A stretch of DNA of 64,000 nucleotides from Chthoniobacterales bacterium (GTDB taxonomy: Bacteria; Verrucomicrobiota; Verrucomicrobiia; Chthoniobacterales; JAATET01), in the NCBI GenBank assembly GCA_036569045.1, contig DATCRI010000058.1, positions 1-64,000 of the forward strand, given 5' to 3'. Below are positions 36,141-43,666 of this stretch, piece by piece (positions within the stretch are counted from its first letter, which is position 1; each line of letters begins with the position of its first letter). A program made the position numbers and the translations under genes. Below the pieces are notes generated by a model. It was given only the letters and a program-made list of their open reading frames with translations. It was not told where the DNA came from and did not search any database.

Positions 36141-36154
36141 TTGATCCTCGTCAA
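36141..36154 (+). promoter_or_regulatory. FNR-type box between sufS and pdxH (9/10 match)
   Basis: TTGATCCTCGTCAA, compared with TTGAT-N4-ATCAA: one mismatch (G for A). It ends 36 bases before the pdxH ATG and lies 82 bases upstream of the sufS ATG on the other strand. It is one of three such sites here. Confidence 0.6.
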
Positions 36155-36861: not shown

Positions 36862-36875
36862 TTGATGGCGATCAA
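36862..36875 (+). promoter_or_regulatory. Perfect FNR-type box upstream of nrdD
   Basis: TTGATGGCGATCAA matches TTGAT-N4-ATCAA at all ten positions. It begins 16 bases after the pdxH stop. A class II site (centre at -41.5) would put the transcript start near 36910, ahead of the GTG at 36936, in support of that start. Confidence 0.75.
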
Positions 36876-36935: not shown

Positions 36936-38645
36936 GTGACCACCGCGACCCAAATCGATCCGACTTCGTCGCTGAACGAATACCTCGACCGCGAGGATTG
37001 GCGGGTCAACGCGAATGCCAACCAGGGCTATTCCCTTGGCGGCATGATTCTCAATCTCGGCGGCAAGCTGACCGCCAACTACTGGCTCGACCACATCTAT
37101 CCCGAGCCTATCGGCCGCGCGCATCGCCAGGCCGATTTTCATCTGCACGACCTCGACATGCTTGCCGGTTACTGCGCCGGCTGGTCGCTGCGCGCGCTGC
37201 TCGCGGAGGGATTCAACGGCGTGCCGAACAAGGTCGAGTCGCGCCCGCCGCGGCATCTGCGCACATCGCTCGGGCAGATGGTGAATTTTCTCGGCACGCT
37301 GCAGAATGAATGGGCCGGCGCGCAGGCTTTCAGTTCCGTCGACACGTATCTCGCGCCCTTCGTCCGCGCCGATCGACTCGACGAAGACACCGTCCGGCAG
37401 AATCTGCAGGAATTCGTTTTCAACCTGAACGTCCCATCGCGCTGGGGCACGCAGACGCCCTTCACGAATCTCACCTTCGACTGGGTCTGCCCGGAGGATC
37501 TGCGCGGGCAGCATCCGCTCATCGGCGGGGAGCCCGCCGCATTCACCTACGGCGATCTCGGCGAGGAAATGCGGATCATCAATCGCGCGTTCCTGCAGGT
37601 GATGATCGCTGGCGACGCCCGGCAGCGCATCTTCACGTTCCCGATCCCGACCTACAACATCACCGAGGATTTTCCGTGGGAAAGCGACGACGTCGATCTG
37701 CTCTTCGAGGTCACCGCGAAATACGGGCTGCCGTATTTCCAGAATTTCCTGCGCTCCGATCTCCAGCCTGGCATGGTGCGCTCGATGTGCTGCCGCCTGC
37801 AGCTCGACCTGCGCGAGTTGCTCAAGCGCGGGAACGGGCTCTTCGGCTCGGCCGAACAGACCGGCTCGCTCGGCGTCGTCACGATCAATGCCGCGCGGCT
37901 GGGCTACCTGCGCGCCGGCGACGAGTCCGCGCTCATGGAACGGCTCGAGGAATTGATGGACCTCGCGCGCGACAGTCTCGAGATCAAGCGCGACGTCATC
38001 CAGCAGCAGATGGATCGCGGCCTCTATCCCTACACGCGCCGGTATCTCGGCACGCTGCGCAATCATTTCTCCACGATCGGCATCAACGGCGTGAACGAGT
38101 GCATCCGGAATTTCACCGGCGACGCGGAGGACATTTCCACCCTATGGGGCCAGGCTTTTGCACTGCGACTCCTCGACCGCATGCGCGAGCGCATCACCGC
38201 CTTCCAGCAGCAGACCGGGCACCTCTACAATCTCGAGGCCACACCCGCGGAAGGCACGACCTATCGCTTCGCCCGATCCGATCGCGCCTGTTTTCCAGAA
38301 ATGCTGCAGGCCGGAACGCCGAACGCCCCCTACTACACGAACTCGACGCAGCTGCCCGTGGGTTTCACCGACGATCCCTTCTCCGCCCTCGATCACCAGG
38401 AGGAACTCCAACGCCGCTACACCGGCGGCACCGTCTTCCATCTTTATCTTCCGGAGCGTGTGTCCACCGGCCGCGCATGCCGCGACCTCGTCCGCCGCGT
38501 GCTCACGCGCTTCCGCATCCCGTATCTCACGATCACGCCCACGTTCTCGATCTGCCCCGCGCACGGCTACCTCGCTGGCGAGCACGAGTTTTGTCCGCGC
38601 TGCGATGCCGAGCGCCTGGCTCGCAAGCAGCAAGAAAGCTTATGA
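36936..38645 (+). CDS. nrdD: Anaerobic (class III) ribonucleotide reductase, large part without the glycyl-radical domain
   Basis: NrdD reduces ribonucleotides without oxygen. The 569-residue product has the NrdD core: NANANQGYSLGGMILN, FNLNVPSRWGTQTPFTNLTF, RSMCCRLQLDLREL and INGVNECIRNFTGDAEDIS. It ends at a zinc-knuckle-like CPAHGYLAGEHEFCPRCD and then stops. The glycyl-radical segment expected next (RVxGY) is missing from this protein and is coded by the next gene, whose ATG overlaps this stop (ATGA). There is no ATP-cone. The start is GTG 36936 or GTG 36903. The first is favoured by the FNR box and by the family pattern. Function requires the small partner. Confidence 0.88.
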   Translation: MTTATQIDPTSSLNEYLDREDWRVNANANQGYSLGGMILNLGGKLTANYWLDHIYPEPIGRAHRQADFHLHDLDMLAGYCAGWSLRALLAEGFNGVPNKVESRPPRHLRTSLGQMVNFLGTLQNEWAGAQAFSSVDTYLAPFVRADRLDEDTVRQNLQEFVFNLNVPSRWGTQTPFTNLTFDWVCPEDLRGQHPLIGGEPAAFTYGDLGEEMRIINRAFLQVMIAGDARQRIFTFPIPTYNITEDFPWESDDVDLLFEVTAKYGLPYFQNFLRSDLQPGMVRSMCCRLQLDLRELLKRGNGLFGSAEQTGSLGVVTINAARLGYLRAGDESALMERLEELMDLARDSLEIKRDVIQQQMDRGLYPYTRRYLGTLRNHFSTIGINGVNECIRNFTGDAEDISTLWGQAFALRLLDRMRERITAFQQQTGHLYNLEATPAEGTTYRFARSDRACFPEMLQAGTPNAPYYTNSTQLPVGFTDDPFSALDHQEELQRRYTGGTVFHLYLPERVSTGRACRDLVRRVLTRFRIPYLTITPTFSICPAHGYLAGEHEFCPRCDAERLARKQQESL

Positions 38646-38815
38646 AAAAAATCGAACTCGAAGACCACGAGCGCCAGCGGTGCGAAGTGTGGACGCGCGT
38701 GATGGGCTACCATCGGCCCGTCTCGCAATTCAACATCGGCAAGCAGAGCGAACACCACGAGCGCCTTCCGTTCCGCAAATTGAAAACCGAGGAGCCCGTT
38801 GTCGCTGCGAGCTGA
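38642..38815 (+). CDS. Separate glycyl-radical domain of the class III ribonucleotide reductase
   Basis: The 57-residue product is CEVWTRVMGYHRPVSQFNIG plus short ends. The RVMGY motif holds the glycine that NrdG would turn into the catalytic radical, and the following PVSQFNIGKQSEHHER matches the last residues of normal NrdD. In full-length enzymes this segment follows the zinc knuckle. Here it starts at ATG 38642, overlapping the nrdD stop. It probably binds the large part to complete the active site. The gene is also overlapped by the start of nrdG. Too short for most gene callers to keep without context. Confidence 0.85.
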   Translation: MKKIELEDHERQRCEVWTRVMGYHRPVSQFNIGKQSEHHERLPFRKLKTEEPVVAAS

Positions 38816-39446
38816 ACCTGGCCTGCGGGTCGGCGGATTCGTCCCATTTTCGACCGTCGATTTTCCCGGCCGTCTCGCCGCGGTTGTCTTCTGCCAGGGC
38901 TGTCCGTGGCGCTGCCGCTACTGCCACAACCCGCATCTGCAGTCGTTCGACGGAGGCACCGCCGACTGGCCGCGCATCGAGGCTTTCCTCGAGACAAGGC
39001 GCGGATTGCTCGATGCCGTGGTCTTCAGCGGCGGAGAGCCCACCGCCCAGCTTGGGCTGCCTGCGGCCATGCGAACTGCGCGGCGCATGGGCTTTGCCGT
39101 GGGGCTGCACACGGCCGGAATTTTCCCATTCCCCCTCCGCCGGGCGCTGGATTACGTGGATTGGGTCGGCCTTGATATCAAGGCGCCGTTCGAGCGTTAC
39201 GCCGAGACCACCGGCTGCCGCGCAAGCGGACGAAATGCCGAAGACTCGCTGCGCATTTTGCTGGGATCGGGCGTGGACTACGAGCTGCGCACAACGGTCC
39301 ATCCCTCTCTCCTCGACGACGCCGGGAAAAATCAAATTCGCCGGACGCTGGACCGCTTCGGCGCCCGTCCCACCCGCTGGCAGGAATTCCGCCCCGCCGG
39401 CTGCGCCGACATGGAACTCAACGCCGCTTTCCAGGCCAATTTTTGA
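38799..39446 (+). CDS. nrdG: Anaerobic ribonucleotide reductase activating protein
   Basis: NrdG is a radical SAM enzyme that makes the glycyl radical on the reductase. The 215-residue product has CPWRCRYC near its N-terminus (the CxxxCxxC cluster motif) followed by HNPHLQ, the AVVFSGGEPTAQLGL motif, and the family core. TTG 38799 is the start. It is preceded by GAGGAG and overlaps the end of the small glycyl-radical gene by 17 bases. Its stop lies inside an FNR-type box (39443-39456). Confidence 0.92.
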   Translation: MSLRAEPGLRVGGFVPFSTVDFPGRLAAVVFCQGCPWRCRYCHNPHLQSFDGGTADWPRIEAFLETRRGLLDAVVFSGGEPTAQLGLPAAMRTARRMGFAVGLHTAGIFPFPLRRALDYVDWVGLDIKAPFERYAETTGCRASGRNAEDSLRILLGSGVDYELRTTVHPSLLDDAGKNQIRRTLDRFGARPTRWQEFRPAGCADMELNAAFQANF

Positions 39447-39456
39447 CTTGGATCAA
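39443..39456 (+). promoter_or_regulatory. FNR-type box upstream of the feo operon (9/10 match)
   Basis: TTGACTTGGATCAA, one mismatch (C for T) against TTGAT-N4-ATCAA. It overlaps the nrdG stop and ends 36 bases before the next gene, exactly as the pdxH site does. Confidence 0.65.
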
Positions 39457-39491: not shown

Positions 39492-40505
39492 ATGCAATCC
39501 ATCGGCTCCCTCGTGGACCGTCCTGCGACCATCACGTGGGAGGTGACGCGCGGCGCGATGGAAGGCCATCGGAGTCCGCGGTTCTGCACCGACCTGACCG
39601 CCCGCGAATGTCGCAACGTCGTCGACCAGATCGCCGAAGCCGCCCCGCAGATTCTCCTCATCTCGGGCGATGTGGTGGCGCGACGCGACCTCGTGGAAAT
39701 CATCGCGCGCGCAGATGCGCATGGCATCTGGGTCGCCCTTCGACCCGCGATCCGGCGCGGGCTGCTCGACGTCGATTTCGGCGCACTGCGCCATGCCGGC
39801 TTGCGCAGCCTGTCCGTGAATCTTGGCAGCACTCGCACCGCTGGAATGGATCGCCGCATTTCCACCGCGCTGGATGTCCTCACCGCCGCACGCCGCGCGC
39901 GTCTCGCCATCCAAATCAAGACGACTCTCCCCGACTTCGACGATCTCCCGCGCGTCATCCGCATTATGAGATCGCTCCAGCCCGCGGAATGGAGAACTTC
40001 CTTGCCCGTGCCTCGCCGCGGCGAGGAGCCCCTCAATCCGAATCTCACGGAGAAGATGCTCAGTGCGTTGAGTCTTTTTCCATCGGCCACGGGCGTTCCA
40101 CTGGGCATCAGCAACGCCCCGCACATCCGTCGGATCTCCATACAGGCCCACGCCGTCCCCCATCCGCGCCGGCGTCGCATCGTTCCGCTCAACGACGGAC
40201 GCGGCCGCCTTTTCGTCTCCCATCGTGGGGAAATCATGCCCGGCTCCGCGCTACCGATCGCCTGCGGCAATGTTCGCCTTCATCATCTTCTCGACATCTA
40301 TCGGGAGGCTCCAGTTTTTCAGCGGCTGAGAAACCCGAATCTGCTCAGGGGAAAATGTGGCCGATGCGGATTCCGCCTCGTCTGCGGAGGCTCTCGCGCC
40401 CGGGCCTACGCCGCCACCGGCGATTACCTTGCCTCGGACCCCGCCTGTGCGTTCGCGTCCGCGGCTCCACGCCCGGCATCGGACGAGGCGCTCCTCGCTT
40501 CCTGA
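39492..40505 (+). CDS. Radical SAM/SPASM-family protein that has lost the cluster motif
   Basis: The 337-residue product is related to radical SAM proteins with a SPASM end. The N-terminus reads ATITWEVTRGAMEGHRSPRF, where relatives have ITWEVTRACDLxCxHCRA, so the CxxxCxxC cluster site is gone. The GGEP strand reads LLISGDVVARRDL. The C-terminal part keeps CGRCGFRLVCGGSRARAYAATGDYLASDPAC, the SPASM cysteines. It probably cannot cleave SAM. It may bind an auxiliary Fe-S cluster or serve as a partner protein. It leads the feoA-feoB operon, eight bases before feoA, and follows an FNR box. Confidence 0.75.
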   Translation: MQSIGSLVDRPATITWEVTRGAMEGHRSPRFCTDLTARECRNVVDQIAEAAPQILLISGDVVARRDLVEIIARADAHGIWVALRPAIRRGLLDVDFGALRHAGLRSLSVNLGSTRTAGMDRRISTALDVLTAARRARLAIQIKTTLPDFDDLPRVIRIMRSLQPAEWRTSLPVPRRGEEPLNPNLTEKMLSALSLFPSATGVPLGISNAPHIRRISIQAHAVPHPRRRRIVPLNDGRGRLFVSHRGEIMPGSALPIACGNVRLHHLLDIYREAPVFQRLRNPNLLRGKCGRCGFRLVCGGSRARAYAATGDYLASDPACAFASAAPRPASDEALLAS

Positions 40506-40818: not shown

Positions 40819-42722
40819 GCGCCGGCATTCTCCTCGATCAGCCTCCCAAAAAGAATCGCACCCGCCTGGTCGCGCTTGCGGGAAATCCGAACAGCGGCAA
40901 GAGCACCATCTTCAACGCCCTCACCGGCCTGCGGCAAAAAGTCGCGAACTATCCCGGCGTGACCGTTGAAAAGAAAACGGGGCGCTTTGCCGGGATGCAT
41001 GGCGAGTTCATGGACGCGCTCGATCTCCCCGGCACCTATAGCCTCGACGCGCAAAGCCCCGACGAGGCCATTGCACGCGACGTGCTGCTCGGCCACCGGC
41101 AGGACACCCGCCGCCCGGACGTTGTCGTGAGTGTCGTGGACGCGTCGAACGTCGAGCGCAATCTCTACCTCACCACCCAGCTCGGCGACCTCGGCATTCC
41201 GGTCGTGGTCGCGCTGAACATGGTCGATGTCGCGGAGCAAAAAGGCATCCGCATCGATCCCGACTCCCTCGAGCGAAGGCTTGGAATGCCGGTCGTTCCG
41301 ATGGTCGCGTCGAAGGGCAAAGGTCTCGTGGAGCTCAAATCCCGGCTCGCGCAGGCCCGCACGACGCGACCTGGCGGCGCCACCCTCTCCTCCAGCGTGG
41401 AGGATCGCTACGCGCGGATTCGCGAGATTTGCTCCGGCGCCGTGCGGCGTCCCGACTCTCCGCGCCGCTCGCTCACCGATCGCGTGGACGCCGTTCTCAC
41501 TCATCGCGTCTGGGGCTGGGTGTTCTTCCTCTCGCTCATGGCGCTGCTCTTTTTCTCGATCTTCCAGATCGCGGCATGGCCGATGGAGGGAATCGAGTCC
41601 GCCACCGCATTCGCCGGGGAATGGCTCGGCGGCCGCATGCCCGCCGGCGACCTTCGCAGCCTGCTCACGGACGGCGTCGTGGCGGGCGTCGGAGGCGTCG
41701 TCGTCTTCCTGCCGCAGATTTTGATCCTCTTTTTCTTTCTCGGATTGCTCGAGGACAGCGGCTACATGGCGCGCGGCGCGTTCATCATGGACCGCCTCAT
41801 GGCCATGGTCGGACTGCATGGCAAGTCCTTCATCCCGCTGCTCAGCTCGTTCGCCTGCGCGATCCCCGGCGTCATGGCGGCCCGCACCATCGAGAATCGC
41901 GGCGACCGCCTGGCGACCATCCTGATCTGCCCGCTCATGAGCTGCTCGGCGCGGTTGCCCGTCTATGCGCTGATGATCGCGGTGCTCCTGCCGGCCGGGA
42001 CCGGCGCCGCCTGGACGAAGGCCGGCATCATGCTCGCGATGTATGTGCTGGGAGTGGCCGCGGCCTTCGTGACGGCGTGGCTGCTCAAGCGCACGGTCTT
42101 TCGCGGCGAGCCGTCGATGCTGCTGCTCGAGATGCCGCCCTACCGGCTCCCCTCGCTGCGCAACACCTTTCTCCGCATGTGGGAGCGTGGCCGCATCTTC
42201 CTCACGCACGCGGGCACCACGATCCTCGCGCTATCCATCGTGCTGTGGGCCATGATGACCTATCCCAAGCCCGCGCAATCCGACACACCGCCCTCGCAGG
42301 CGCTTTCCGGCAGCCTCGCGGGCCGCATGGGCCACGCGCTGGAGCCAGTGATTCGCCCGCTCGGCTACGATTGGAAGATCGGCATCGGGCTCATTGCATC
42401 CTTCGCGGCGCGCGAGGCTTTCGTCGGCACGATGGCGATCGTTCACAACGTAGGCGACGACGGCGACGGCAGCGTCACCCTGCGCGACGCGTTGCGCGCG
42501 GAACGGCGAGCCGACGGTTCACCGGTTTACACACCCCTGGTCTGCATCGGGCTGATGGCCTTCTACGTGCTCTCGATGCAATGCATGAGCACGCTGGCCG
42601 TGGTGCGCCGCGAGACGAATAGCTGGCGCTGGCCGATCTTCCAGTTCGCTTACATGACCGCGCTCGCCTACGGAGCAAGCCTCCTCATTTACCAGGGCGG
42701 CCGCCTGCTGGGATTCCAATGA
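40815..42722 (+). CDS. feoB: Ferrous iron transporter FeoB
   Basis: FeoB imports Fe2+ across the inner membrane, driven by its N-terminal G domain. The 635-residue product carries G1 GNPNSGKST (23-31), the G2 region YPGVTVEKKTG, G3 DLPGTYS, and G4 LNMVD, followed by a membrane part with the family motifs SFIPLLSSFACAIPGVMAARTI and MSCSARLPVYALMI. The length is a little short because the loop between G domain and membrane part is brief. FeoB needs ferrous iron, so it fits the low-oxygen control suggested by the upstream FNR box. Confidence 0.96.
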   Translation: MSAGILLDQPPKKNRTRLVALAGNPNSGKSTIFNALTGLRQKVANYPGVTVEKKTGRFAGMHGEFMDALDLPGTYSLDAQSPDEAIARDVLLGHRQDTRRPDVVVSVVDASNVERNLYLTTQLGDLGIPVVVALNMVDVAEQKGIRIDPDSLERRLGMPVVPMVASKGKGLVELKSRLAQARTTRPGGATLSSSVEDRYARIREICSGAVRRPDSPRRSLTDRVDAVLTHRVWGWVFFLSLMALLFFSIFQIAAWPMEGIESATAFAGEWLGGRMPAGDLRSLLTDGVVAGVGGVVVFLPQILILFFFLGLLEDSGYMARGAFIMDRLMAMVGLHGKSFIPLLSSFACAIPGVMAARTIENRGDRLATILICPLMSCSARLPVYALMIAVLLPAGTGAAWTKAGIMLAMYVLGVAAAFVTAWLLKRTVFRGEPSMLLLEMPPYRLPSLRNTFLRMWERGRIFLTHAGTTILALSIVLWAMMTYPKPAQSDTPPSQALSGSLAGRMGHALEPVIRPLGYDWKIGIGLIASFAAREAFVGTMAIVHNVGDDGDGSVTLRDALRAERRADGSPVYTPLVCIGLMAFYVLSMQCMSTLAVVRRETNSWRWPIFQFAYMTALAYGASLLIYQGGRLLGFQ

Positions 42723-42940
42723 ACTGGCAATCGCTAACCGTCATGGCGCTGGTTCCCGGGGCTGCATTCTATCTGGCCTGGAAAAGCTTTCGCGCAAGCC
42801 GCTGCCGGTGCGGCGGATGCCGCTGTCCCGTCTCCCCGGGCGTCCCGGCAGCGGGCGGCGTGCCTGGAGTCAGGCCGCCGCAGCGCAGGACTCCCGTTCC
42901 GACCAGTCGGATCGCAGAGCCCGTGGATCCTGCACGATGA
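42719..42940 (+). CDS. FeoB-associated Cys-rich membrane protein
   Basis: The 73-residue product has an N-terminal membrane helix (SLTVMALVPGAAFYLAWKSF) and a CRCGGCRCP cysteine cluster, followed by a proline-rich tail. This arrangement defines small Feo-associated proteins that sit after feoB in many genomes. The ATG overlaps the feoB stop (ATGA). Its 3' end overlaps that of the convergent Crp/FNR gene by 71 bases, so the tail may be partly or wholly dispensable. Confidence 0.75.
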   Translation: MNWQSLTVMALVPGAAFYLAWKSFRASRCRCGGCRCPVSPGVPAAGGVPGVRPPQRRTPVPTSRIAEPVDPAR

Positions 42941-43607
42941 TTCGCCTCCCCCGGACGACGAGATAACCCGAGTCGCTCAACTGGCGCAGCGTTCGAGAGA
43001 GAGTTTCCTGCCGCACGCCCAGCTCGCTGGCGAGGTTGCGCTTGGTGGTGCCGAGGTCGATTTCGACCGCGGCCGATGCGTCCGCGCAGCGACGCAACAA
43101 CCAATGCACGAAACGCGTCACGCTGTCCCCGGTGACGAAATCCTCGAACGAGGTCGCCAGGTCGTGGACGCTCCGCTCCATCAAGGACAGCAGGCGCAAC
43201 GCAAGCTCGGGACAGTGCCGGCATTTTTCCGCGAAGTCGCGCCAGGGAATCATCACGATCTCCGAAGAAACAATCGCCCGAGCATCGGCAGGACATCCCT
43301 CGCCAGCCTCATCCGGAGTCTCCGCAAGCATCTCTCCCTCGCGATAAAAATGAATGACGACTTCACGACCGTCCAAAGCGACGCGATGTAGATTCACGAT
43401 CCCGCGGCGCACGAAATAGAGACCAGTTGCAGGCTCTGCCCGGTGGAAGAGGTAGTCGTCTTTCCGGAGCGACCTGACGATTGCGCTAACAGCAAGATCG
43501 CGGAGGTCCGCCTCCGGCAGATCACGGAACAACGCACGCTGGCGCAGAAAGTAACGCAGCGCTTCGGTGCGAAACTCCACGGCCGCGCGGCTTGCAGGCG
43601 GCGTCAT
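42870..43607 (-). CDS. Crp/FNR-family transcriptional regulator
   Basis: The 245-residue product has the cyclic-nucleotide-binding-like domain (LFHRAEPATGLYFVRRGIVNLHRV, GREVVIHFYREGEML), a dimer helix and a C-terminal winged helix (TTKRNLASELGVRQETLSRTLRQLSDSGYLV). The recognition helix (RQETLSRTLRQL) resembles that of FNR/DNR, which read TTGAT-N4-ATCAA. The N-terminal cysteine set of oxygen-sensing FNR is absent. Three cysteines lie later (EGCPADAR, KCRHCPEL), so it may sense by haem or be a DNR-type regulator. It sits convergent with feo and is the likely regulator of the three boxes nearby. Start ATG 43607. Confidence 0.88.
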   Translation of the reverse strand: MTPPASRAAVEFRTEALRYFLRQRALFRDLPEADLRDLAVSAIVRSLRKDDYLFHRAEPATGLYFVRRGIVNLHRVALDGREVVIHFYREGEMLAETPDEAGEGCPADARAIVSSEIVMIPWRDFAEKCRHCPELALRLLSLMERSVHDLATSFEDFVTGDSVTRFVHWLLRRCADASAAVEIDLGTTKRNLASELGVRQETLSRTLRQLSDSGYLVVRGRRIIVQDPRALRSDWSERESCAAAA

Positions 43608-43666
43608 TTTGGATCGCAGTCGGGGATGGGACGAAACCGGGAGCGAATGGGTTCTCACAAGGGGTG

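Follow-up and report, generated by a model that had tools for sequence, protein, structure and literature searches.

What does a radical-SAM/SPASM protein do once it has lost the cysteines of its catalytic cluster and stands directly before the genes for ferrous-iron uptake? The question is raised by a 337-residue protein (P0001) encoded in a 64,000-nucleotide stretch of a Chthoniobacterales contig, here called the window (genome G000; Table 1). The initial annotation, made from the letters alone, described a radical-SAM/SPASM relative of no named family and suggested a new role, such as an iron or oxygen sensor. The pseudoenzyme part of that description stood, while the protein proved not to be anonymous: comparison of sequences identifies it as the descendant of an AhbD-type heme synthase that has become a pseudoenzyme and has lost its AhbC partner.

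Table 1 Features of the locus, in window coordinates.
Feature	Coordinates	Strand	Basis or remark
FNR/Dnr-type box in the divergent sufS-like / pdxH gap	36141..36154	.	pattern search
FNR/Dnr-type box TTGAT-N4-ATCAA, upstream of nrdD	36862..36875	.	pattern search
nrdD, anaerobic ribonucleotide reductase	36951..38645, start approximate	+	92% identical in G001
nrdG, radical-SAM activase of nrdD	38799..39446	+	TIGR02495 above cut-off; own cysteine motif CQGCPWRCRYC present
FNR/Dnr-type box TTGAC-TTGG-ATCAA, between nrdG and pseudo-AhbD gene	39443..39456	+	pattern search
pseudo-AhbD, radical-SAM/SPASM protein without SAM cluster motif	39492..40505	+	337 aa; translation, family profiles, alignment, omega, model
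remains of the CxxxCxxC loop, residues 22-32	39555..39587	+	alignment; relaxed by omega; predicted disordered
codons 289-319, four AuxII cysteines C289, C292, C298, C319	40356..40448	+	invariant in 23 aligned proteins
feoA, 101 aa	40513..40818	+	PF04023, E 2.6e-19
feoB, 635 aa	40815..42722	+	TIGR00437, E 4.7e-157
small hydrophobic ORF 3' of feoB, 73 residues, CRCGGCRC	42719..42940	+	conserved in G001
Crp/Fnr-family regulator without N-terminal cysteine cluster	42870..43658	-	PF00027 and PF13545

Motifs, family and descent

The frame is open over all 337 codons and retains the phrase ITWEVTR, as first described, with GAMEGHRSPRFC standing where CxxxCxxC would be and SGDV at the place of the GGEP strand. 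Identical losses were found in the nearest relative (P0002), a protein 67% identical from a Chthoniobacterales MAG that represents another species of the same genus (G001) and shares the neighbours and the box, its gene standing between nrdG and feoA-feoB. The cysteine loss beside feoAB is therefore common to the sole other close homologue found, a pattern that differs from the single degenerating copy among motif-bearing relatives considered at the outset. In the two pseudo-forms (window / G001), GGDP at the GG[DE]P motif has become SGDV / AGDM, SLDG has become NLGS / SLGN and NTT has become KTT / KSS, and alignment with intact relatives revealed that the former cysteine loop is 7 residues shorter.

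The intact set used for comparison comprised 21 aligned proteins, of which 11 come from the order and 10 from six other phyla, together with 48 loci in 384 Verrucomicrobiae genomes sampled evenly out of a larger group. P0001 and P0002 have lost the CX3CX2C motif. All 21 other members of the alignment and the loci of the class survey carry it, so that about 70 other homologues examined across Verrucomicrobiae and six other phyla have kept it. Carriers of the family made up 14 of the 213 genomes of the order. No further pseudo-forms were detected in these 213 genomes, in the 384 genomes of the class or among 84,980 species genomes, which were scanned in a way able to detect close relatives only. 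Two loci that looked odd at first (L169 and L171) had intact motifs on reading, and a second working AhbD copy was sought in G000 and rejected, the other match there being PqqE-like.

Among columns conserved in at least 19 of the 21 intact proteins, both pseudo-forms have lost 21 of 47 in the barrel part, for the most part at the cluster loop and at GGDP, SLDG, NTT and KTT. In the SPASM part 4 of 31 are gone, PSGF accounting for three, and all four AuxII cysteines are kept. The remaining cysteines, C289-x2-C292-x5-C298-x20-C319, are complete for one auxiliary cluster and match the AuxII motif of AhbD, CX2CX5CX20-38C (PMC10452713). What had been read as a complete SPASM cysteine set is thus complete for AuxII, at one auxiliary site, and the full set of 7-8 cysteines for two auxiliary clusters is absent from the window protein. 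The AuxI set is missing from the aligned intact relatives too and is absent from many natural AhbDs (PMC10452713).

Family profiles placed the protein near AhbD and below every threshold: TIGR04053 gave E 4.4e-58 and 197.3 bits against a 395-bit cut-off (the intact sister in G003, a further genome of the genus, scored 421), and the AhbD family TIGR04545 gave E 4.6e-39 and 134.8 bits against 500, a cut-off that the intact G003 protein also missed (294). The Pfam SPASM domain was sub-threshold (16.9 versus 21.5 bits) and Pfam yielded nothing else; TIGR04347, a pseudo-SAM family, scored 54.7 bits, below its cut-off of 525. In the tree, the pair of pseudo-forms was nested inside the order and within TIGR04053, as sister to the intact G003 protein (support 96/90); the stem leading to the pair measures 1.27 changes per column, and the sequences show vertical inheritance. 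The window protein accordingly resembles AhbD (TIGR04545; TIGR04053 clade) in fold, in its AuxII site (CX2CX5CX20C), in descent by sequence and tree and in its siroheme-route context; it differs from AhbD in having no CX3CX2C, lost SAM motifs, no AhbC partner and a place in a feo operon. Judged from these sequences, conversion of iron-coproporphyrin III to heme by a protein without the SAM cluster is unlikely.

Gene neighbourhood and the heme route

AhbD is the heme b synthase that completes the siroheme route, and ChdC is the oxygen-dependent alternative for this final step, acting on the same iron-coproporphyrin substrate. Genes for AhbAB-type siroheme decarboxylase were found in all 16 genomes tested. 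HemH ferrochelatase was absent from 14 of 15, the exception (G005) being a genome without the AhbD/AhbC-like pair; HemE exceeded its cut-off in 2 of 18 (G005 and G009) and never in carriers; and 14 of 15 genomes had no match to cytochrome cd1, with one match that was weak and partial. Given this pattern, the AhbD/AhbC pair most likely serves an oxygen-free conversion of siroheme to heme, and the near-absence of cytochrome cd1 ruled out heme d1 biosynthesis as the task of the radical-SAM pair. ChdC was present in all four members of the genus (G000 to G003) and missing from the pair carriers G032, G082 and G072. In H. volcanii, ChdC serves aerobic growth and AhbD anaerobic growth (PMC5746218).

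Two side observations concern the reach of this pathway. G000, G001 and G002 have AhbAB and ChdC, with AhbC, HemE (above cut-off) and HemH not detected, so that no known enzyme accounts for the conversion of didecarboxysiroheme to iron-coproporphyrin in these three genomes. The findings suggest that Chthoniobacterales make heme by a siroheme route, with one step unexplained where AhbAB and ChdC occur with no AhbC. Intact AhbD-AhbC-like pairs were also very common in one Verrucomicrobiae genus with genomes of 2.2-3.5 Mb (f15/g47; many of L127-L168), which suggests that this genus uses the siroheme route to heme as well.

Within the order, and at most loci of the class survey, a radical-SAM gene of the AhbC/NirJ1-like kind comes after the intact gene. 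We took the order seen in G003 (nrdG, AhbD-like, AhbC-like, crp) as the older arrangement. In the window, feoAB occupies the place of the AhbC-like gene, before the same crp gene that follows AhbD-AhbC in G003, and no AhbC-like gene was found in the whole genomes of G000 or G001. The window FeoB shares 85% identity with its G001 counterpart, only 44-49% with the G002 and G003 proteins and at most 63% with a G082 FeoB (fragments), so the window feoAB belongs to another lineage. In another family of the order (L034, L035 and L037, in G041, G072 and G047), feoB comes directly after intact AhbD-AhbC pairs, and because these enzymes are intact, proximity to feo requires no loss of catalysis. Heme synthesis and ferrous-iron uptake have, from these gene orders, become linked more than once. 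As only two genomes carry the pseudo-form, its own association with feoAB counts as a single evolutionary event, and its placement there may be due to chance.

The pseudo-AhbD gene begins 45 bases after nrdG, and feoA starts 7 bases past its stop codon. In G001, the pseudo-AhbD frame runs on into feoA with no stop at all, which may reflect a sequence error in the MAG. The initial view that the gene leads the feo operon behind an FNR box was borne out for feoA, feoB and the box, while its first place in the operon is likely, since read-through from nrdG could also occur. The gene nrdD was named by its resemblance to the family, with NrdG2 encoded beside it. Downstream, the 73-residue ORF had no Pfam match and a single hydrophobic stretch, and resembles the small cysteine-rich membrane proteins associated with FeoB.

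The pattern of the box before the pseudo-AhbD gene, TTGAC-N4-ATCAA, was found twice in the window against 0.09 expected. A degenerate FNR pattern occurred at 6 places in the genome (3 for a control pattern), three of them within a 3.3-kb stretch of the locus, and feoAB now shares this locus with the boxes. FNR-type boxes lie 40-52 bases before the start in the window, G001, G003 and G066, and none was found at that place in the other carriers tested. A further box near AhbAB (C7:146801) was rejected as a link, lying about 2.4 kb off with other ORFs between. The Crp/Fnr-family regulator has an FNR-like recognition helix (ETLSR) and is possibly of the Dnr type, making it a candidate reader of the three boxes of the locus.

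Constraint on the frame and the predicted fold

We estimated omega for the window gene against G001, which gave 0.075 overall, 0.060 for the barrel and 0.044 for the SPASM part, values that are rough because dS (2.8) is near saturation. Far from the dN/dS near one that had been named as a sign of decay, omega = 1 was rejected for the whole gene with a likelihood-ratio statistic of 197, and neighbouring genes ranged from 0.03 to 0.15. Residues 1-33, which include the cysteine loop, had an omega of 0.38, indistinguishable from 1. Neutral simulation at the divergence of the neighbours (d = 1.4) left 15% identity and about six stops, versus the real 67% and none, and only 0.5% of frames stayed open; omega and simulation together ruled out survival of the frame by chance. 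An antisense gene was likewise rejected as the source of constraint, with substitutions at the first, second and third codon positions (0.25, 0.15 and 0.49) fitting the plus-strand frame. Pseudo-AhbD is under purifying selection, and only the former cysteine loop is relaxed.

The predicted structure (pLDDT 84.8, pTM 0.84) matched radical-SAM/SPASM enzymes over residues 6-323, and the best 50 matches listed were all radical-SAM enzymes (Z 21.7 to 12.6), so that the partial (beta/alpha) barrel is, in the model, kept. The closest solved structure was PqqE (6c8v; Z 21.7, rmsd 3.8 over 277 residues), which differs from the window protein as an active radical-SAM enzyme of about 20% identity in another pathway. 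The former cysteine loop fell below pLDDT 50 at residues 24-31 and was ordered in the model of intact G003. Blocks of the AuxII region reached 73-77 in the window protein versus 90-94 in intact G003, a mild point, at the level of the model, against a cluster there.

A possible role beside FeoAB

Ancestry, motif and partner losses, selection, synteny and the box are established at the level of sequence, and suggest how an AhbD-type heme synthase could have become a pseudoenzyme in one Chthoniobacterales lineage. The starting point would be an intact AhbD beside an AhbC-like enzyme and behind an FNR-type box, as in G003 and G066, an arrangement that fits oxygen-free heme synthesis. With ChdC available, the disappearance of AhbC would have released the protein from its former function; the SAM-cluster loop and SAM-binding motifs would then have gone in a burst of change, in an order of events that we infer, after which the barrel and the AuxII cysteine site would have come back under purifying selection. 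Pseudo-AhbD may now be a non-catalytic accessory of an anaerobically induced Feo system, with a putative [4Fe-4S] cluster at the AuxII site, and could tune the activity or stability of FeoA/FeoB in response to iron or redox state, in the way proposed for FeoC. We tentatively favour this explanation, an Fe-S accessory of FeoAB responding to iron or redox through its AuxII cluster, which on the sequence comparisons falls a little short of probable; a point against it is the loss of the PSGF motif neighbouring the AuxII region. Somewhat doubtful is a broader version, in which a heme-synthesis radical-SAM enzyme that lost its SAM cluster became a sensor subunit of Feo, non-catalytic and working through Fe-S or iron-porphyrin, apparently in frame with FeoA in one species. 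If true, the protein would found a new class of Feo accessories and would be a regulatory pseudoenzyme of radical-SAM origin.

E. coli FeoC forms a [4Fe-4S] cluster without oxygen (PMC8749426). The likeness of pseudo-AhbD to FeoC lies only in the proposed principle, a cytoplasmic Feo accessory able to carry an oxygen-labile [4Fe-4S] cluster; FeoC is an unrelated small protein, unlike the 337-residue barrel, and there is no sign of common descent. To our knowledge, it is the nearest precedent for such a principle. Radical-SAM/SPASM relatives without a SAM cluster are already on record: the haloarchaeal family TIGR04347, a 'pseudo-SAM/SPASM' family judged by its NCBIfam name, has no working SAM site, is kin to heme and heme d1 enzymes and belongs to a lineage with the siroheme route and ChdC, but it is closer to AhbC than to AhbD and spans 390 positions, and we know of no link between it and feo. 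The literature searched contained no paper on TIGR04053, no study of a radical-SAM pseudoenzyme, with feo or otherwise, and no AhbD-derived pseudoenzyme heading a feo operon. The tie of Feo activity to iron and oxygen is understood in few model bacteria only. The present case offers a series of events that can be reconstructed (partner lost, feoAB in place, active site lost, protein kept), and the single metal site predicted to remain in pseudo-AhbD is open to direct study.

The working part might instead be the tetrapyrrole site, with the protein binding iron-coproporphyrin III or heme as a carrier for ChdC or as a heme sensor gating FeoAB. Substrate binding by M. barkeri AhbD is independent of the auxiliary clusters (PMC10452713), the window genome encodes ChdC, which uses that substrate, and the barrel is kept by both omega and model. 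Conserved residues around the barrel mouth are nevertheless changed in both forms (KTT 205-207, PSGF 251-253 and SLDG 110-113), and this alternative is rather unlikely.

The iron connection itself could be incidental, the gene holding its place by inheritance and its product working with NrdD/NrdG or elsewhere in anaerobic metabolism. With nrdG directly upstream in G000, G001 and G003, the nrdG neighbourhood is older than the feo one, and the lineage of feoAB differs from that of the other feoB of the genus; the tight spacing to feoA and the G001 frame that enters it speak against such independence, and we consider it improbable. Continued work in heme formation by non-radical chemistry, for example in the missing AhbC step, is very unlikely. 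The unexplained step in G000 and G001 would give it an opening, and the haloarchaeal pseudo-SAM family related to AhbC occurs where ChdC also acts, but the gap also exists in G002, a genome lacking any AhbD-like protein, where the step must be filled by something else.

That the gene is a functionless relic whose frame is still open by chance is extremely improbable, as the long stem branch, the relaxed cysteine loop and a broken copy of AhbD in G012 are outweighed by the low omega, the firm rejection of omega = 1, the outcome of neutral simulation and the keeping of the frame by two species. The G012 copy (L021; L043:2526-2783, C244) is a SPASM-only C-terminal piece of a second AhbD-like gene with its front broken and, in contrast to the window gene, is apparently a true pseudogene.
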